From contig NZ_CP048222.1 in NCBI RefSeq assembly GCF_010119975.1, positions 868,001 through 932,000 on the forward strand: a DNA stretch of 64,000 nucleotides, written 5' to 3'. The notes under the pieces were generated by a model, which worked only from the letters and a program-made list of their open reading frames with translations, did not search any database and was not told where the DNA came from. Below are positions 3,092 to 41,479 of the stretch, one piece after another. This stretch comes from Rhodocytophaga rosea (lineage in GTDB: Bacteria; Bacteroidota; Bacteroidia; Cytophagales; 172606-1). Positions within the stretch are counted from its first letter, which is position 1. Every line of letters starts with the position of its first letter. The translations under genes were made by a program, and so were the position numbers.

Positions 3092-6022
3092 ATGCTTGAC
3101 AAGTTGCTTGACCATTTCTCGGGAGAATTATATTACCAGGATAATGCGCACCACCGTGCCCTCAAAAATGTATATGCTACAGATGCTTCTGTTTACCAGG
3201 AACAACCCCTGGCCGTTGCTATTCCCAAAACAGTTGATGATCTGCGCAACTTAATCAGCTTTGCCTATGAACAGGAAATTACCCTCATTCCTAGGGCTGC
3301 CGGTACTTCACTGGCTGGGCAAGTAGTCGGCAGTGGTATTGTAACAGATATTTCCAAACATTTTACTAAAGTACTGGAAGTAAACCAGCAGGAACAGTGG
3401 GTACGGGTACAACCAGGCGTTATCCGGGATGATTTAAATGCTCATCTGAAAGAATATGGCTTAATGTTCGGGCCTGAAACTTCTACCTCCAGCCGGGCGA
3501 TGATTGGAGGAATGATCGGCAATAACTCCTGTGGCCTGCATTCTATTATCTGGGGCGCTACCAGGGATAATCTGCTGGAAGTGAAAGGTTTTTTAGCTGA
3601 TGGCAGTGAAGCAATATTCGGAGCGCTGACAAAAGAGGAGTTTTATAACAAATGCCGCCTACCGACTGCTGAAGGTAAAATTTACCAGGCTATTGAGAAG
3701 TTGCTAAGTGAGCCTGAAAATCAGGAGGCCATCCAGAAAGGGTTTCCCAAGAAGAATATCACCCGCCGCAATACCGGATATGCCCTGGATTATGTGCTCG
3801 ACATGCTGGCATTTGAGGGAACCAAGCCCTTTAATATGTGCAAACTGATTGCGGGTTCAGAAGGTACCTTGTTTTTTGTAACTGAAGCCAAACTCAAATT
3901 GCTGCCTTTGCCACCCAAAGAACCTGGTATGGTAGCCATTCATACTAATAGCATTCACGAAGCATTGCTAGCCAATCTGATCGCCCTCCGCCATCAGTGT
4001 TCAAGTTCTGAGTTAGTCGACGATTTTATTCTGGAATTCACTAAAACCAATATCGAACAATCCAAAAACCGCTTTTTTATTGAAGGAGAACCCAAAGCCA
4101 TATTAATGGTGGAGTTTTTTGATGATACTGTTACTGGTTTACTGGAAAAAGCCAATACATTAATTGAAGACCTGAAAAAAGCGGGCTTAGGTTATGCCTA
4201 TCCGGTGTTGCTGGGCGACGATTCAAAAAAAGCCTGGGAACTGCGGAAAGCCGGACTTGGACTGCTGCGCAATTTACCTGGTGATACCCAATGTGTAAAC
4301 CTGATTGAAGATTGTGCCGTAGATACCGCCGACCTTCCCTCCTATATCGCTGAACTGGAAACCTTACTAAAAAACCATGGGGTCAGGTACTCTATGTATG
4401 CACATGCCGGTGCTGGTGAATTGCATGTGGAACCGATGATCAACCTGAAAACCAAGGCTGGCAAAGGTCTTTTCCGTACCATTCTCCAGGAAACCAGTGC
4501 CTTAGTAAAGAAATACAATGGTTCGTTAAGTGGTGAGCACGGTGACGGTCGTCTTCGGGGTGAATTTATTCCCTTTATGATGGGTGATAAAAATTATGCG
4601 CTCTTTAAGCAGATAAAAAACATATTCGACCCAAAAGGAATTTTTAACCGGGGAAAGATAGTCGACACCCCACCCATGAACGAATTTCTGCGTTACCAGC
4701 CCGACCAGGCGCAGCCTCATATAGCTACTACCCTCGATTTTTCGGCCCAGGAGGGCATCTTGCATCTGGCCGAAAAATGCAGCGGTTCCGGAGATTGCCG
4801 CAAAACCCACATCACCGGTGGAACGATGTGCCCCAGCTATATGGCCACCCGCAGCGAACGGGATACTACCAGAGCAAGGGCTAATATGCTCCGTCATTTT
4901 TATACCGGAACGCTTGCTTCAGAGGGAGAAAAAGTAAGTATGGAACAGGTAAAAGATGTACTTGATCTGTGTCTTTCCTGCAAAGGCTGTAAATCAGAAT
5001 GCCCTTCGAGTGTAGATGTGGGAAAGATGAAAGCTGAATTTACCCAGCAGTATTATGATACACATGGTATCCCGTTACGCTCACGGCTCATCAGTGATTT
5101 TACCAAACAAATGAAACTGGCTTCGCTGGCTCCCTGGGGATATAATCTGATTTTTGGAACAGCTTCTCTGAGGCAATTGGCAAATAATATGGTGGGATTC
5201 CATCCGAAGCGGACCATGCCAAAATTATATACTACTACTTTACGAGAATGGTGGAAAAAGCAAAAGGCCAATAAGAGTAACCAGACTTCCAACGGCATAG
5301 TTTATTTGTTCTGTGATGAATTCACTAATTATAATGATGTGGAAATCGGCCAGAAACTGATCTTATTACTGCAAAGACTCGGCTATCAGGTAGAAATTCC
5401 GCAGCATCTGGAAAGTGCCCGGACTTATCTGTCTAAAGGCCTGGTGAAAAAGGCAAAGGAAATTGCCATACAAAATGTAGAAGTGCTTTCAAAAATAGTA
5501 ACCAGCAATGCTCCTATTATCGGCATTGAGCCCTCTGCTATTCTCACTCTGCGGGATGAATACCTTGATCTGGTACCCAATGAGCTTAAAAAGGCTGCAG
5601 TTCATCTGGCAAGTTGTACCTGGTTATTTGACGAATGGTTTGCCAATGAGATTGATAAAGGAAATATCCGGAAAGAAGCCTTTACTACAGAAAAAAAGCT
5701 AATTAAACTGCATGGTCATTGCCACCAGAAAGCCCTTTCTTCACTTACATTCACTAAAAAAGCATTGTCGTTGCCAGCAAACTACGAATTACATCTGATT
5801 CCATCTGGGTGTTGTGGCATGGCTGGCTCATTTGGGTATGAAAAGGAACACTACGATGTTTCCATGCAGATTGGAGAACTGGTATTATTTCCAACCGTCC
5901 GTAAGCAGCCAGAAGATGTAATTATTGCTGCTCCTGGCACCAGTTGCCGCCACCAGATTAAGGATGGCACTGGCCGTATCGCCTTGCATCCGGCAGAAAT
6001 CCTATATAATGCCTTATTGTAG
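3092..6022 (+). CDS. FAD-binding and 4Fe-4S oxidoreductase (D-lactate/2-hydroxyacid dehydrogenase type)
   Basis: A large membrane-peripheral flavoprotein of the YdiJ/D-2-hydroxyacid dehydrogenase type, about 976 residues. The N-terminal FAD_binding_4 domain shows IPRAAGTSLAG and the GGMIGNNSCG loop. It is followed by a FAD-oxidase C-terminal domain (AHAGAGELHVEP, SGEHGDGRLRGEF). A ferredoxin-like 4Fe-4S module comes next (CSGSGDC, then CLSCKGCKSECP). A CCG-type domain closes the protein (HGHCHQKAL, SGCCGMAGSFGYE). These fused parts suggest oxidation of a 2-hydroxyacid with electrons passed through Fe-S clusters to quinone; the substrate cannot be read from sequence. The frame is open back to a TTG at 3065, but the ATG at 3092 (MLDKLLDHF) is the likelier start. 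The heparinase-like gene follows 27 bases downstream. Confidence 0.9.
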   Translation: MLDKLLDHFSGELYYQDNAHHRALKNVYATDASVYQEQPLAVAIPKTVDDLRNLISFAYEQEITLIPRAAGTSLAGQVVGSGIVTDISKHFTKVLEVNQQEQWVRVQPGVIRDDLNAHLKEYGLMFGPETSTSSRAMIGGMIGNNSCGLHSIIWGATRDNLLEVKGFLADGSEAIFGALTKEEFYNKCRLPTAEGKIYQAIEKLLSEPENQEAIQKGFPKKNITRRNTGYALDYVLDMLAFEGTKPFNMCKLIAGSEGTLFFVTEAKLKLLPLPPKEPGMVAIHTNSIHEALLANLIALRHQCSSSELVDDFILEFTKTNIEQSKNRFFIEGEPKAILMVEFFDDTVTGLLEKANTLIEDLKKAGLGYAYPVLLGDDSKKAWELRKAGLGLLRNLPGDTQCVNLIEDCAVDTADLPSYIAELETLLKNHGVRYSMYAHAGAGELHVEPMINLKTKAGKGLFRTILQETSALVKKYNGSLSGEHGDGRLRGEFIPFMMGDKNYALFKQIKNIFDPKGIFNRGKIVDTPPMNEFLRYQPDQAQPHIATTLDFSAQEGILHLAEKCSGSGDCRKTHITGGTMCPSYMATRSERDTTRARANMLRHFYTGTLASEGEKVSMEQVKDVLDLCLSCKGCKSECPSSVDVGKMKAEFTQQYYDTHGIPLRSRLISDFTKQMKLASLAPWGYNLIFGTASLRQLANNMVGFHPKRTMPKLYTTTLREWWKKQKANKSNQTSNGIVYLFCDEFTNYNDVEIGQKLILLLQRLGYQVEIPQHLESARTYLSKGLVKKAKEIAIQNVEVLSKIVTSNAPIIGIEPSAILTLRDEYLDLVPNELKKAAVHLASCTWLFDEWFANEIDKGNIRKEAFTTEKKLIKLHGHCHQKALSSLTFTKKALSLPANYELHLIPSGCCGMAGSFGYEKEHYDVSMQIGELVLFPTVRKQPEDVIIAAPGTSCRHQIKDGTGRIALHPAEILYNALL

Positions 6023-6049
6023 CAAAACCGCTTCTAGCCCTTCCTGAAC

Positions 6050-7948
6050 ATGAAAACCATTTGCCAGTTCTTGCTCTTACTACTCTTCCTGCTATCCTGT
6101 ACGCTTTCACTTAACGCACAAACCCTGCCGCAGTCAACATTTACCAGTTTACCCTCTCATCCCAGGATTTTACTTCTGGCAGGTGAAGAAAAGAGCATTC
6201 AGGCAAGTATAGAAGCAGACCAGAGCTGGAAAAAAGTGCATCAGGCTATTCTGGATGAATGCGAAAAGATCATAGCAACAGAACCGGTACAGAGAATCCA
6301 GATCGGCAGGCGCTTGCTGGATAAGTCCAGGGAATGTTTGAGAAGGGTATTTTATTTGTCATATGCCTACAGGTTGAATAAACAAGCGAAATACCTGAAG
6401 CGGGCAGAAAAAGAATTACTGGCGGTATCGGCATTCAGCGACTGGAATCCCTCCCACTTTCTGGATGTAGCCGAAATGACCATGGCCGTAGCAATTGGTT
6501 ACGACTGGATGTATGATGCCTTGCCGGAAGAATCGAGAAACAAAATCAAAGAAGCCATCCTCAAAAAGGGCATTGAACCTTCCCTGGATACCCAATACAA
6601 TAGCTGGCTAAAGGCTACCCATAACTGGAATCAGGTGTGTAATGCCGGTATCACCTACGGCGCTTTAGCTATTTTTGAAGACCAACCGCAGCTGGCGCAG
6701 CAAATCATTACCCGGAGTATTGAGAGCATAGTATTGCCCTTAAAAGACTATGAACCCGATGGTGCTTATCCGGAGGGATATAGTTACTGGGGCTATGGCA
6801 CGAGTTTCCAGGTGCTATTTAACAGCGCTATCGAAAAACTTTTCGGGAATATTGCTAGTGTGGGCAACCAGCCGGGCTTTATGAAAACGGCTGCTTACCT
6901 GCTGCACATGACAGGCCCGACCGGAAGCAGTTTTAATTACTCAGATGCTGGTACTGAAACTGGCCTGCAGCCGGCTATGTTCTGGTTTGCCCAGAAATTA
7001 AAACAACCTTCCTTGTTGTGGGCAGAAAAAGAGCAATTAGTAAATAGCCGGGAGAATATCCGCACCAATAACCGACTGCTTCCAGCCATGATACTATGGG
7101 GTCATGATGTCCGCTTAAATAAAATTTCAGCACCAACAAATAAACTGTGGGTAGGACAAGGCAAAAACCCGGTTGCCCTTATGCGTACCTCCTGGACTGA
7201 TCCCAATGCCATTTATGTAGGGTTCAAAGCTGGTTCTCCTTCCGTAAATCACGGGCATATGGATGTAGGTTCGTTTGTAATGGATGCCGTTGGCGAAAGA
7301 TGGGCCATGGATTTTGGGTTACAAAATTATGAATCACTAGAATCGAAAGGTATTAGCATCTGGGGCAGAGAGCAGGGAGCACAACGATGGGAAGTATTCC
7401 GGTATAATAATTTTTCACATAATACATTAACAGTAAACTATTCTCTGCAACTGGTGGATGGTTACGCCACCATTACAACTTCCTCCGATAAATCATCTGC
7501 ACTCTATGCCATAACAGACCTGACGAGCCTGTATAATAACCAGCTTAACAGCGCCAAAAGAGGTATTTCCATTATTGATCAGCAATATATAGTGGTGCGG
7601 GATGAAATTGAAACAGCTGATTCCTCCTGCTTCGTCCGATGGACTATGCTCACTTCGGCAAATGCCAGAATAAGCGGAAAAGATGCAATAGAACTCAGTA
7701 AAAATGGGAAAAAGCTGCTTTTGAAAGTGCAAAGTCCGGCCAAGGTTATCTTAAAAACCTGGCCTACCGATCCGCCAAAACCCTATGATGCCCCTAATCC
7801 TGGTACTATGCTGGTGGGTTTTGAAGTAGAAATTCCAAAAAACTCCAGAGAAGCGTTTACAGTATTGCTTATTCCGCAAAATAATACCAAAAAAATATCG
7901 AGAGAAACTTTGCCTTTAGAAAACTGGCGTAAAGCAGTAGTTAAATAA
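6050..7948 (+). CDS. Secreted heparinase II/III family polysaccharide lyase
   Basis: A 632-residue exported protein with a signal peptide ending near LNAQ. The first part (about 30-370) is an alpha-helical toroid with conserved stretches THNWNQVCNAG and PEGYSYWGYG. The second (about 380-600) is the beta-sandwich Hepar_II_III domain with VNHGHMDVGSF. These Asn, Tyr and His positions fit the catalytic set of heparinase II-like and PL15/PL17-like lyases, which cleave uronate-containing polysaccharides by beta-elimination. The actual glycan is unknown. It follows the FAD/Fe-S oxidase by 27 bases and may share its transcript. No SusC/SusD pair is adjacent, so this is not an obvious polysaccharide-utilisation locus. 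Confidence 0.85.
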   Translation: MKTICQFLLLLLFLLSCTLSLNAQTLPQSTFTSLPSHPRILLLAGEEKSIQASIEADQSWKKVHQAILDECEKIIATEPVQRIQIGRRLLDKSRECLRRVFYLSYAYRLNKQAKYLKRAEKELLAVSAFSDWNPSHFLDVAEMTMAVAIGYDWMYDALPEESRNKIKEAILKKGIEPSLDTQYNSWLKATHNWNQVCNAGITYGALAIFEDQPQLAQQIITRSIESIVLPLKDYEPDGAYPEGYSYWGYGTSFQVLFNSAIEKLFGNIASVGNQPGFMKTAAYLLHMTGPTGSSFNYSDAGTETGLQPAMFWFAQKLKQPSLLWAEKEQLVNSRENIRTNNRLLPAMILWGHDVRLNKISAPTNKLWVGQGKNPVALMRTSWTDPNAIYVGFKAGSPSVNHGHMDVGSFVMDAVGERWAMDFGLQNYESLESKGISIWGREQGAQRWEVFRYNNFSHNTLTVNYSLQLVDGYATITTSSDKSSALYAITDLTSLYNNQLNSAKRGISIIDQQYIVVRDEIETADSSCFVRWTMLTSANARISGKDAIELSKNGKKLLLKVQSPAKVILKTWPTDPPKPYDAPNPGTMLVGFEVEIPKNSREAFTVLLIPQNNTKKISRETLPLENWRKAVVK

Positions 7949-33821: not shown

Positions 33822-34886
33822 ATGGAGAAACTGAATGACAAATGGCTGCGTTTGGTAGGCGTACCTCTGGTAGCAATTTTAGGTAATTTTATTTTTTATC
33901 TTCCCGAAAATAATGGAAATAATATCAGTGTCTGGAAGGGATTATTTTTCAGCCTGATCGAGTGTGTGTCCTTCTGGGAAGTAAGCCGCCTGGGAATTAT
34001 ACTGGCCCGAAAAAGGTATCCGCAGCTCACTCAAACAAAATACCGGATTCTGTACATTTTTTCCTGGTATGTATTGAGCACAATAATTATGCGCATAGGA
34101 ATAACCTATCTGTATGATGTAACTTTATTCTGGGGCTATCCTATATCGGCACGCTCCTACTGGATCAATCTGCTGGTGCCTTTTTTATTTACCGTACCTA
34201 TTGCTGCCATTTATGAAGGCAAATATTTGTATAAACAATGGTGGGCTACCTATTATGAAGCGGAACAGCTCAAAAAAGAAAACCTGCAAAGCCAGCTGGA
34301 TTCACTTAAATCGCAGATCAATCCTCATTTTTTGTTCAATAGCTTAAGTACGCTTTCTTCTCTGGTGAGTGAAGACCCCAAACGGGCAGAACGATTCATA
34401 GAAGAATTATCTTCTGTCTACCGCTATGTACTCCATACCAATGAGAGTTCGCTGACAACACTTGAAAACGAACTCCATTTTATTGAAGCCTATGTACATT
34501 TGCTGCAAACCAGGTTTGGAAAAGGAATTGATGTACACATAGAGGTAGATGAAGCCTATTATTCCTTCCAGTTGCCTCCGCTTACCTTACAACTGCTGGT
34601 TGAAAATACCGTGAAACATAACGCAGTTACGCCATCGAAACCCCTGCTGATCCGGATTTTTACCGATGAAGTGAATAACCTGCATGTACTCAATACCCTG
34701 CGCAAAAAAACCAATCTGGTGCCTTCCAGCCAGACCGGACTTAAGAATATAGCCCGGAAATTCCAGTTACTCAAACAGCCGGATATTCTGGTAAAACAGA
34801 CCGGTGATTGTTTTCAGGTAACTATTCCGCTTATTCCCTCCAGTGTTCAGCCAAGCCCTGCATCCTATGAAAATACTGCTTATTGA
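33822..34886 (+). CDS. LytS/YehU-type sensor histidine kinase (second copy)
   Basis: 354 residues. About four hydrophobic helices precede residue 135. The linker EAEQLKKENLQSQLDSLKSQ leads to the phospho-acceptor His169 in INPHFLFNSLSTLSSL. Further on are YRYVLHTNESSLTTLENEL, LQLLVENTVKHNAVTP and QTGLKNIARKFQLL. It has the same build as the kinase at 8273-9298 and is clearly its paralogue. The stop overlaps the start of the LytTR regulator by 20 bases, indicating translational coupling. Confidence 0.9.
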   Translation: MEKLNDKWLRLVGVPLVAILGNFIFYLPENNGNNISVWKGLFFSLIECVSFWEVSRLGIILARKRYPQLTQTKYRILYIFSWYVLSTIIMRIGITYLYDVTLFWGYPISARSYWINLLVPFLFTVPIAAIYEGKYLYKQWWATYYEAEQLKKENLQSQLDSLKSQINPHFLFNSLSTLSSLVSEDPKRAERFIEELSSVYRYVLHTNESSLTTLENELHFIEAYVHLLQTRFGKGIDVHIEVDEAYYSFQLPPLTLQLLVENTVKHNAVTPSKPLLIRIFTDEVNNLHVLNTLRKKTNLVPSSQTGLKNIARKFQLLKQPDILVKQTGDCFQVTIPLIPSSVQPSPASYENTAY

Positions 34887-35658
34887 AGACGAAGAACTCA
34901 CTGCCCGGAAAATGCAGCGGATGATTGCCGATGTTCAACCTGATGCCCAGCTGCTGGCAACTATCGGCAGCGTAGAAGAATCTGTAGAATGGATGCAAAC
35001 CCACTCCAGCCCGGATCTGGTCCTGATGGATATAGAGCTTTCTGATGGACAAAGTTTTGAGATATTCAACCAGGTAACAGTAAATTGCCCGGTGATTTTT
35101 ACGACGGCGTATGATGAATATGCTATCAAAGCCTTCCGGGTGAATAGTATCGACTATCTGCTGAAACCAATTAAAGAAGAAGATCTCCGCAGAGCGCTCA
35201 ACAAATTACAGCAACTGAAACAAATCCTTTCTACGCAGCCCGACTTTTTGCAAAGTTCCTTAGCGAACCTTATTACCCAATTATCGGCACCCTTGCCGCA
35301 AACTACTCAGATTACCACCTACAGAGACCGGTTTATGATCAAACAAGGGCAGCGCTTGTTTGCCATCGAAACAGACGAAATTGCTTATTTCTTCACCAGG
35401 AATAAAATTTCCTTTATCAAAAGCCATGACAACCGCGAATACATGGTGGATTATCCCCTCGACGAACTTGATAAAATGGTGAATCCCAAGCGTTTTTTCC
35501 GGCTCAACCGCCAGATCATTGCTGAACTACGGTCCATAGAAAAAGTGCATCTGTATTTCAATAATAAACTCAAAATTCAGCTACGTCCGGCATTCGAAGA
35601 AGAAGTACTGGTGAGCCGCATTAAAGCCGGAGATTTCAAAGTATGGCTGGGAGAATAG
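34867..35658 (+). CDS. LytTR-family response regulator (second copy)
   Basis: 263 residues from the ATG at 34867 (MKILLIEDEE), chosen over an earlier in-frame ATG because receiver domains begin with this strand. Phospho-acceptor is Asp55 in LVLMDIELSDGQSFEIF; the switch region TTAYDEYAIKAFRVNSIDYLLKPI is almost identical to the paralogue at 9381. The LytTR domain covers about 155-260 (FFRLNRQIIAELRSIEKV). It is translated in overlap with its kinase. Targets are not evident here. Confidence 0.92.
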   Translation: MKILLIEDEELTARKMQRMIADVQPDAQLLATIGSVEESVEWMQTHSSPDLVLMDIELSDGQSFEIFNQVTVNCPVIFTTAYDEYAIKAFRVNSIDYLLKPIKEEDLRRALNKLQQLKQILSTQPDFLQSSLANLITQLSAPLPQTTQITTYRDRFMIKQGQRLFAIETDEIAYFFTRNKISFIKSHDNREYMVDYPLDELDKMVNPKRFFRLNRQIIAELRSIEKVHLYFNNKLKIQLRPAFEEEVLVSRIKAGDFKVWLGE

Positions 35659-38717: not shown

Positions 38718-39213
38718 TTATATTTGATACGCTAAACAGTAAACTTAGAAGCTTTCTTCAGTTTTTTCTTTAGCCTTCTCTATATTATATAAGGCAATAT
38801 CATCTACTACTAATGTGTCAGCTATACTATCATGCAGCCCTACAGGTAAATGAGAGCCGATTAAAGACAAAGGTTCGAAAGGAATCAAACGGGCAAAAGA
38901 TCTACCCAGGATATTTTTCAAGGTAGGCTTTCCTCCATCCTTCCTGACTACTTTGGTATTCGTTATCATTTTCCCAATCGTTTTACCGAACTTGTATTCA
39001 AAAAAAGTATAATAAGCTACAAGCATAATAGAGGGTAGTAAATAATTTAATAATAATGAATCAGAAAGCGTAGTAGTATCGGATGCATCTGTAGAAATAA
39101 GAGCAGAAATTTCCCAAACTATACCAATCCCTATAAATATTACATAAAAAAATACTAAATCTAGGTCGTGTTGACATATAGGTGAGAAGTGAAGAACTTA
39201 GCTATAAAAAACG

Positions 39214-39543
39214 ATGCGAAGATATGAGTTGCGAGAAGATCAATGGCTGAAGATTGCCCCTTTGCTACCCGGCAAAGCAACTGATCCGGGACGAAGTGGA
39301 GAAGACAACCGCCAATTTGTGCAGGCTGTGCTGTGGATAGCCCGTAGCGGAGCTCCTTGGCGAGACTTGCCGGAACGATATGGCAAGTGGAATACAGTAT
39401 TTCAACGCTTTAACCGGTGGAGTAAAAAAGGAATCTGGCAACAAGTATTTGGGGCCTTACAAGAGCCTGACTTGGATTGGATACTACTTGATAGCACCAT
39501 TATACGTGCTCATCAGCATGCAGCCGGTCAAAAAAAAGTATAG
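39214..39543 (+). CDS. IS5-family transposase, first frame (DUF4096 and first Asp)
   Basis: 109 residues with the DUF4096-type N-terminus MRRYELREDQWLKIAPLLPG, then IARSGAPWRDLPERYGKW. The first catalytic Asp is in LLDSTIIRAHQHAAG. The frame ends at an A8 run (39530-39537) with stop TAG at 39541-39543. The rest of the transposase continues in the +1 frame. With seven A instead of eight, the two would join into one protein of about 250 residues, so production needs slippage at the A run, or the copy has suffered a frameshift. Confidence 0.88.
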   Translation: MRRYELREDQWLKIAPLLPGKATDPGRSGEDNRQFVQAVLWIARSGAPWRDLPERYGKWNTVFQRFNRWSKKGIWQQVFGALQEPDLDWILLDSTIIRAHQHAAGQKKV

Positions 39544-39967
39544 ACAAACTGATGAAGCCTTAGGCCGAAGCCGAGGTGGCTACAGCAGTAAAATACATGT
39601 CACAGTAGATGCCTTGGGAAATCCCAGGCGCGTAATGCTCTCAGCCGGACAAGTCCATGATTTGCAAATGGCTGCCTGTTTACTCGAAGGTGAGTGCACA
39701 GGAGCTGTAGTAGCCGATAAAGCCTATGATAGTGATGTGTTGATTGCTTTTATTGAACAGGCAGGAGCTCAGGTAGTGATTCCACCAAAAGCTAACCGGC
39801 TAGAGAAACGAGCATATGATGAGAATTTGTATGCCGATAGAAATAAAGTAGAGCGGTTTTTTAATCGCCTGAAACATTATCGCAGGCTAGCTACCCGCTA
39901 TGAGAAAACAGCCCGCAACTTTCTTTCCTTCTGGCAACTTGCTTGCGCTGTGATGCTAACACTATAA
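39380..39967 (+). CDS. IS5-family transposase, second frame (DDE remainder)
   Basis: The useful part begins near the A8 run (about 39530): KKKYRQTDEALGRSRGGYSSKIH. The second catalytic Asp is in VVADKAYDSDVLIAF and the Glu in NKVERFFNRLKHYRRLATRYEK, which completes a DDE_Tnp_1 catalytic triad with the first frame. The upstream overlap with the first frame (39380-39530) is probably not translated from its own start. Confidence 0.85.
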   Translation: MASGIQYFNALTGGVKKESGNKYLGPYKSLTWIGYYLIAPLYVLISMQPVKKKYRQTDEALGRSRGGYSSKIHVTVDALGNPRRVMLSAGQVHDLQMAACLLEGECTGAVVADKAYDSDVLIAFIEQAGAQVVIPPKANRLEKRAYDENLYADRNKVERFFNRLKHYRRLATRYEKTARNFLSFWQLACAVMLTL

Positions 39968-40275
39968 TGATTGTCAACACAACCTAGTATATAATTGAAG
40001 AACCGCTTACGTCTTCGGGTTGGCTTAATGATCTCACTGATAAGTTCACTTTTGTTAATTAATCCTTCAGATAAAGTTGTTTGCATAATTTTATAATTTT
40101 TGAGACTGAATGAGAATTTTAAGATGTATGTAACCCAACGCTATCTTTTTGTGTCAAGTAATAAGGTAAGAAATTGATTAATACCACACAATATTGATTT
40201 TTATACTATATCTGTCTGAATTTATACATTCTAATAGTATATCGTTACTTCCAGGTAAAGTAAAATAATAATTAT

Positions 40276-40316
40276 AGAACATTTGTTCTAATTACAAATA
40301 TTAGTACATTTGTTCT
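40276..40316. promoter_or_regulatory. Twin palindromic operator upstream of the FAD monooxygenase
   Basis: AGAACA-TT-TGTTCT (40276-40289) is a perfect palindrome. AGTACA-TT-TGTTCT (40303-40316) repeats it 27 bases on with one mismatch. Both sit in a 16-base direct repeat (ACATTTGTTCTAATTA). The second ends 15 bases before the ATG at 40331, where a bound repressor would block expression. TetR- or MarR-type repressors use such sites; no regulator gene is adjacent. Confidence 0.65.
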
Positions 40317-40330
40317 AATTATTAATCACT

Positions 40331-41479
40331 ATGAAAAATATAGCCATAATCGGGGGTGGCATAGGAGGATTGTGCACCGCCATTGCATTACAGAAACAAG
40401 GACATGATGTGAAAGTATTTGAAAGCGCACCTCACCTAAAGCCATTAGGTGCTGGACTAGGATTAGCAGCTAATGCTATCAAAGCCCTCTTGGACATCGG
40501 TATTGGGCAAGATATTCTAAAAGCGGGAAATGTACTTTCTTCGTTTGAAATCCTTAATCAGCAGGGAAAACTTATCACCAAAACGGACAGCCTTAAAGTA
40601 AGCAAACAATTCGGAACAGATAATTTTACTATTCACCGGGCCGACTTACATACTATTTTACTGCAACATCTGGCACCTCACACACTAGAACTTGGGAAAA
40701 GCTGTACAACTGTTGTCCAAAACTCCAAGGAAGTTGAGATCAGGTTTAAAGATGGCTCTACTTCCTATGCAGATTGCCTGATTGCCATGGATGGGATTCA
40801 TTCACAAATCCGCCAGCAACTATTACCTCAAAGCAAACCACGTTATGCCGGCTATACCTGCTGGCGGGCGGTTATTGATACACAGCCAGAACATTTTAAT
40901 CCGGCAAAAGCCACCGAAACCTGGGGAACCAAAGGAAGATTTGGAATTGTGCCTTTATCCGGAAAACGTATCTACTGGTTTGCCTGCCTGAATGCTGCCC
41001 AGGCAGATAAACACCTGGCTGCTTTTTCGGTGAATGATCTCATACAAAATTTCAAGGATTATCATGCGCCAGTCCCACAGATATTAGCACTCACCCACGA
41101 CAGCCAGCTCATTCATAATGATATTATTGATATTAAACCTATTAAACAATTTGCCTTTGGTAAGATAGTATTAGCCGGCGATGCAGCGCATGCTACCACT
41201 CCCAATATGGGACAAGGTGCCTGCCAGGCCATAGAAGATGCAATTGTACTCGCTAATTGTATCAAAAACAGTAGCACTGTAGAAGAGGCTTTCCAGGTAT
41301 TTGAACACAAACGGGTGAACCGCACCACCAAAATTGTAAATACTTCCTGGCAGGTTGGAAAAATGGCTCAGGTAGAAAATCCATTACTGGCCGCTATCCG
41401 GGATATGCTGCTTCGTATAGTACCTCCCAGTGTGAATGATAAACAACTCCAGTTTCTCTACAATGTAGATTTTACTTAG
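40331..41479 (+). CDS. FAD-dependent monooxygenase
   Basis: 382 residues, group A flavoprotein monooxygenase of the HpxO/salicylate-hydroxylase-like type. The N-terminal FAD motif is IIGGGIGGLCTAIAL, the DG motif is CLIAMDGIHSQIR, and the GD motif is VLAGDAAHATTPNMGQGACQAIEDA. It uses NAD(P)H and O2 to hydroxylate a small aromatic or similar compound; the substrate is unknown. The tight double operator just upstream points to induction by a small molecule, perhaps a drug or aromatic compound. The nearest relatives in Bacteroidota include tetracycline-modifying TetX-like enzymes, but I cannot claim that function. Confidence 0.88.
   Translation: MKNIAIIGGGIGGLCTAIALQKQGHDVKVFESAPHLKPLGAGLGLAANAIKALLDIGIGQDILKAGNVLSSFEILNQQGKLITKTDSLKVSKQFGTDNFTIHRADLHTILLQHLAPHTLELGKSCTTVVQNSKEVEIRFKDGSTSYADCLIAMDGIHSQIRQQLLPQSKPRYAGYTCWRAVIDTQPEHFNPAKATETWGTKGRFGIVPLSGKRIYWFACLNAAQADKHLAAFSVNDLIQNFKDYHAPVPQILALTHDSQLIHNDIIDIKPIKQFAFGKIVLAGDAAHATTPNMGQGACQAIEDAIVLANCIKNSSTVEEAFQVFEHKRVNRTTKIVNTSWQVGKMAQVENPLLAAIRDMLLRIVPPSVNDKQLQFLYNVDFT

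Follow-up and report, generated by a model that had tools for sequence, protein, structure and literature searches.

Two near-identical palindromes stand just upstream of the gene for an FAD monooxygenase in Rhodocytophaga rosea, a member of the Cytophagales, and no repressor gene lies beside them. Which regulator acts on this gene, and from where? We addressed this question in a 64,000-nucleotide window (G000:C1:868001-932000) of the R. rosea genome (G000), which consists of a single contig of 8.98 Mb. An earlier note on the same DNA had described the palindromes as a strong repressor site served by a regulator encoded elsewhere. Our analysis makes it likely that the locus is a tetR/tetA-like switch that has been split in R. 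rosea, in which a TetR family protein would repress the monooxygenase gene in trans via a pair of operators overlapping its promoter.

The 14-mer cores of the two putative operators, AGAACATTTGTTCT at 40276-40289 and AGTACATTTGTTCT at 40303-40316, carry 0 and 1 mismatches respectively and lie 27 bases apart from start to start, exactly as first described; the direct repeat that holds them is also present, but extends over 20 bp (19/20 identical) instead of the 16 initially given. Fourteen bases separate position 40316 from the monooxygenase ATG at 40331. A single site of this type is not rare: 14-mers with up to two mismatches are found three times in the window for a shuffle mean of 2.93, hence no more commonly than in shuffles, and AGAACANNTGTTCT with at most one mismatch is found at 18 places genome-wide versus 11 for a reversed control pattern. 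The pair behaves differently, its score being reached by none of 200 dinucleotide shuffles of a 130-base stretch, while two TAGN10CTA elements 18-45 bases apart were obtained in none of 500 shuffles. The exact TAGNACAWWTGTNCTA occurs at three sites in the R. rosea genome, for a chance expectation of 0.21-0.32 when the window composition is applied to the genome; these are the operator pair and one site before the ATG of a TetR gene. A palindrome with one mismatch at C1:269831 was not counted as a target because it falls in the 3'-terminal part of a gene's coding region. The features of the locus, with the operators at their full length of 16 bp, are collected in Table 1, and the proposal that the palindromes form a repressor site pair is very probably right.

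Table 1. Features of the monooxygenase locus, in window coordinates.
Feature	Position	Strand	Remarks
IS5-family element inside the RDD gene	39161..39993 (ends approximate)	.	Context, outside the switch
First codons of the RDD-family gene (follows TetR in R. aerolata), cut by the IS element	39985..40086	-	Comparison with R. aerolata
Stretch at the TetR position of R. aerolata	40087..40261	.	175 bases, not alignable to R. aerolata
Putative operator 1, TAGAACATTTGTTCTA	40275..40290	.	Distal to the monooxygenase; perfect palindrome except central TT; conserved in relatives
TTTG in operator 1, candidate -33 element	40282..40285	+	19-base spacer to the -7 element; predicted from sequence
Putative operator 2, TAGTACATTTGTTCTA	40302..40317	.	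Proximal to the monooxygenase; conserved in relatives
TACATTTG in operator 2, candidate -7 element (TAnnTTTG)	40305..40312	+	Inferred from consensus
FAD monooxygenase gene, 382 aa	40331..41479	+	NCBIfam PRK06753, Pfam FAD_binding_3

The regulator missing beside the R. rosea gene is present in its relatives. In R. aerolata (G001), of the same genus, a yfcH-like gene and the monooxygenase gene are followed by a divergent TetR gene, an RDD gene and tatC, and the monooxygenase, TetR and RDD genes likewise lie together in another family member (G004). Adjacency and divergence of the tetR/tetA style are thus found in both relatives and not in R. rosea, where the yfcH-like, monooxygenase and RDD genes are retained and TetR is missing; the unlinked repressor would be the derived state, because the regulator adjoins its target in the relatives. 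R. aerolata has two exact TAGNACAWWTGTNCTA sites, both in the TetR/monooxygenase gap, and the same gap in G004 contains one exact site and one with a single mismatch. The homology between the window and R. aerolata covers both operators, breaks off 6 bases before it would reach the TetR start codon and is found again from the beginning of the RDD gene. In the interval from the RDD start to the operators, tblastn and alignment with R. aerolata revealed no convincing TetR remnant, a weak tblastn piece (E 0.004 in 341 bases) being rejected as non-collinear and containing a stop. The RDD-family gene (38748-40086) is interrupted by an IS5-family element whose transposase is frameshifted; another copy, at C1:7573143, is 100% identical to it over 830 bases. 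The location of the interrupting element inside the RDD gene and not at the TetR position does not support it as the remover of TetR. Elsewhere in the window, at 33822-35658, the translated open reading frames have the look of paired genes for a sensor histidine kinase and a response regulator of the LytTR type.

Where, then, is the regulator encoded? Searching the R. rosea genome with the R. aerolata TetR returned a single close homologue, at C1:5422148 (58% identity, E 4.9e-76), followed by two matches of 26% and 21% identity; reciprocally, this protein matched only the monooxygenase-linked TetR (58%) and one protein of 28% identity in R. aerolata. Its domains (PF00440, 39.2 bits for a cut-off of 24; PF13972, 72.8 bits for a cut-off of 25) include TetR_N. 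The gene lies 4.5 Mb from the monooxygenase, in agreement with the expectation of a regulator acting from a distance. A scan of the genome for the palindrome near a TetR or MarR gene had been recommended, and it leads to the same place: TAGGACAAATGTTCTA stands 19 bases before the ATG of this TetR gene, and the site on the TetR side in R. aerolata has the same sequence and the same spacing. A matching operator is therefore found at the regulator gene itself, as in autoregulation, and of the two families initially envisaged, TetR and MarR, the regulator probably belongs to TetR.

This TetR may be the relocated orthologue of the R. aerolata protein or an older paralogue kept only in this genome. 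Identity between the two species is 58% for TetR and 70% for the monooxygenase, and the trees do not separate the two origins: one of 31 rows groups the R. aerolata TetR with that of G004 (92/71) and not with that of R. rosea, one of 15 rows leaves the grouping open, and joining the R. rosea and R. aerolata proteins is not rejected (p-AU 0.425). Even as an older paralogue, it would still be the best candidate for a regulator in trans. The gene is located 39 bases behind menA on the same strand, whereas no TetR gene follows menA in R. aerolata. Proximity to menA is not a general trait, because L161 alone among 30 TetR loci has menA as a neighbor. The R. rosea genome also contains a second divergent TetR/FAD-monooxygenase pair (L033, C1:54000-66000; TetR 4949-5563, monooxygenase 5693-6829), with a different palindrome, TTAGCTC..GAGCTAA, in single copy.

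Across genomes, the twin sites follow the divergent TetR gene. The monooxygenase was searched in 59 genomes at E up to 1e-60, and five of the 18 matches have twin sites, namely the window and four loci with a strong nearby TetR (335-358 bits); at L022, R. rosea's own paralogue, the TetR match is 100 bits and there is no pair by the twin criterion. A second set, drawn from a scan of genome contigs, comprised the best 80 orthologous loci out of at least 593 relatives. Here, twin sites were found in all three loci with a divergent TetR of this kind (L080, L086 and L101; L080 and L006/L160 are one and the same R. aerolata locus) and in none of the 77 without. Among the latter, L103, L126 and L149 have weak TetR matches (31-36 bits) on the same strand and no twin sites. 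Absence of the site upstream of orthologues had been named as the observation that would count against a repressor site: in these best 80 loci it is indeed absent from 77 loci, but its presence goes with that of the divergent TetR.

Starting from the regulator gives a similar picture. The TetR has a match at 1e-40 in 32 of 390 genomes of the order; the 37 matches correspond to 30 loci, of which 29 were scanned (seven matches came without a locus, and L182, without upstream sequence, was left out). In 16 of the 29, the strand opposite to TetR carries a monooxygenase gene no more than 1.5 kb away, and at L176 a small gene stands between the two. Twin TAGN10CTA elements, 19-36 bases apart, were detected in 14 of these 16 divergent loci, the exceptions being L165 (no sites) and L169 (two sites 46 apart); among the 13 remaining TetR loci, two have twins (L175 and L186), seven a single TAGN10CTA and four none. 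Shuffles would yield about 0.01 twins over all 32 rows, a figure to be read with the fact that TAGN10CTA was chosen with the sequences already in view, replacing a stricter palindrome-pair score (applied to 19 TetR rows and the window) that missed several rows as well as sites of the AGGTCA type. At L165/L206 (G102), some 400 bases separate a monooxygenase from an opposing TetR that is near-identical to the G051 protein; no TAGN10CTA is present in the 130 bases scanned, whereas G051 has two perfect ones. The TAGAACAAATGTTCTG of G006, at C647:13496, is near neither the partial TetR (contig C157) nor the monooxygenase match (contig C100) of that genome.

The DNA-reading part of the protein would link the distant TetR to these sites. 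Its recognition-helix word, HGNLCYH, is common to the TetRs of R. aerolata and G004, and is encoded once in the R. rosea genome, in the TetR at C1:5422148. Nine of the 29 scanned TetRs carry this word; an exact TAGNACANNTGTNCTA is found upstream in seven of them, a looser version at L166 and none at L168. The site is not exclusive to HGNLCYH, as TetRs with GNLYYH, GNLTYH and GNLQYH have fitting sites too. Over L160-L189, the residue after GNL is associated with the half-site: N goes with ..TTGACCTA (5/5), Q with TAGTAC..TACTA (3/3) and R with the TAGCTC, TAGTCC or TAGCGC types. Such tracking would constitute a readable TetR-operator code, and the comparison supplies a panel of recognition helices from Cytophagales TetRs together with the sites that match them.

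How would a protein bound at these sites affect the monooxygenase gene? The earlier note overlooked that operator 2 is probably part of the monooxygenase promoter, its imperfect base giving TAnnTTTG. According to the excerpts of PMC7366714, PMC6847099 and PMC9723704, the primary-sigma consensus of Bacteroidota is TTTG / TAnnTTTG, with the -7 element refined to TAHHTTTG in F. johnsoniae. The base that spoils the palindrome of operator 2 is the very one that creates TACATTTG, a candidate Bacteroidota -7 box that also fits the stricter TAHHTTTG, and the TTTG in operator 1, with its 19-base spacer, falls within the roughly 19-22 bases expected for the upstream element. Across the 14 comparable divergent loci with twins, the target strand reads TAnnTTTG in 12 of the gene-side copies and in 0 of 14 copies on the repressor side, the 12 representing five distinct site sequences from related genomes and hence not independent; the stricter form is found in 10 of the 14 gene-side copies. 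Upstream of the -7 box, at a distance of 19-22 bases, a TTG is present in the window, as it is in seven of the 12 box-bearing loci. With the -7 element placed at -12 to -5, as in the excerpt of PMC9723704, transcription is predicted to start at about 40317, and operators 2 and 1 would span -15 to +1 and -42 to -27, respectively. As judged by consensus, palindromic operators thus lie over the target promoter, and their overlap with the -7 box implies that an imperfect palindrome can be functional and not decayed. Compared with the primary-sigma promoters of those excerpts, the R. rosea sequence is alike in having TACATTTG with TTTG upstream, and differs in that both boxes are inside putative repressor sites; its start is a predicted one.

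These elements suggest the following switch. Both palindromes would be operators of a TetR family repressor that overlap the monooxygenase promoter, operator 1 covering the -33 position and operator 2 holding the -7 box. Two repressor dimers on the pair would keep RNA polymerase off, and a small-molecule ligand would release them, inducing the gene. In the relatives, the divergent repressor gene would share the same operators with the monooxygenase. In R. rosea, the unlinked TetR would repress itself via its own operator, self-repression being expected because a copy of the operator stands just before its ATG, and would reach the monooxygenase in trans.

The most serious alternative is that the monooxygenase has been constitutive since TetR left and that the palindromes persist only as containers of the promoter. 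Because promoter elements overlap both operators, the need for a promoter alone would indeed keep parts of them. However, the outer half-sites, dispensable for the -33 and -7 elements, have also been kept: each operator is 15/16 identical to its R. aerolata counterpart, and operator 1 has become a better palindrome. R. rosea moreover encodes a TetR homologue whose recognition-helix word is that of the R. aerolata protein and whose gene has a site that matches, and we consider such a relic improbable. Even less credit goes to the takeover of the operators by a different regulator, either another TetR of R. rosea or a MarR. Other TetR homologues do exist in this genome, such as that at C1:58975 adjoining a paralogous monooxygenase, but among the matches with E below 1e-15 none of them exceeds 26% identity, HGNLCYH occurs only once, and the neighborhood of the paralogue has TTAGCTC..GAGCTAA as its palindrome. 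TetR could alternatively activate the monooxygenase, or both repress and activate it: the excerpt of PMC3511530 reports members with long intergenic gaps that do not repress, one of four activating. The same excerpt has repression in all five divergent pairs under 200 bp that were tested, and operator 2 on the -7 box and predicted start is in a repressing position, making activation very improbable. A chance repeat without function, to which the frequency of single 14-mers with one or two mismatches might point, is next to impossible given the pair statistics and the conservation with TetR.

Returning to the split switch, G301, from another family of the order, independently shows a comparable layout of one site at TetR and a pair at the target gene. 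One exact site lies 47 bases upstream of the G301 TetR, and a pair of sites is found 1.6 kb away (L202), before a small membrane-protein gene without a Pfam match; the monooxygenase was not found in this genome at 1e-60. One exact site is found at the corresponding gene of G343, a relative of G301, and in both genomes (L202 and L203) a sugar-dehydrogenase-like gene lies between TetR and the small membrane-protein gene. The place of the R. rosea TetR behind menA hints that the ligand may be quinone-related. That all three ideas hold together, namely a movable TetR-plus-site module whose pair stays with the target, a code between helix and half-site, and a quinone-related ligand, is a speculative reading that we would rather doubt than adopt. 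For the R. rosea pair itself, a role as TetR operators is well supported, and its split arrangement is unusual. An orphan operator pair thereby gains a concrete, named candidate regulator and therefore a handle on the monooxygenase, as a compound releasing the TetR would indicate the substrate class. The locus is also a natural experiment on how a repressor gene and its divergent target become separated with the operators retained. Among the matches listed in searches of open-licence PubMed Central papers, we found no description of this TetR-PRK06753 pair.

Among known enzymes, the monooxygenase resembles the class A flavoprotein monooxygenases of PRK06753, for which it scores 461 bits, above the curated NCBIfam cut-off of 365, and its best solved chain is 6-hydroxynicotinate 3-monooxygenase (E 1.7e-47), which together with HpxO represents its nearest solved or named relatives. 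It falls far below the cut-offs of urate hydroxylase HpxO (274 bits for 500), tetracycline destructase (91.9 for 550) and Tet(X) (57.7 for 750), and by these curated values it is neither of the last two. A role as detoxifier or degrader is a guess, and induction by an antibiotic or aromatic compound, as put forward in the earlier note, a conjecture.

Among known switches, the closest is the tetR/tetA divergon, for which the excerpt of PMC3511530 describes two 15-bp operators and, for TetR family members with divergent targets, repression across intergenic gaps under 200 bp. The likeness lies in a pair of palindromic operators that overlie the promoters of the TetR gene and of its divergent target. 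In R. rosea, the target is of the PRK06753 type, the operators are of the form TAGN10CTA, the promoter is a Bacteroidota -33/-7 promoter, and the repressor gene is unlinked, with a single site of its own. The R. rosea arrangement would thus work like a divergon, yet it is none here, since its regulator is unlinked.
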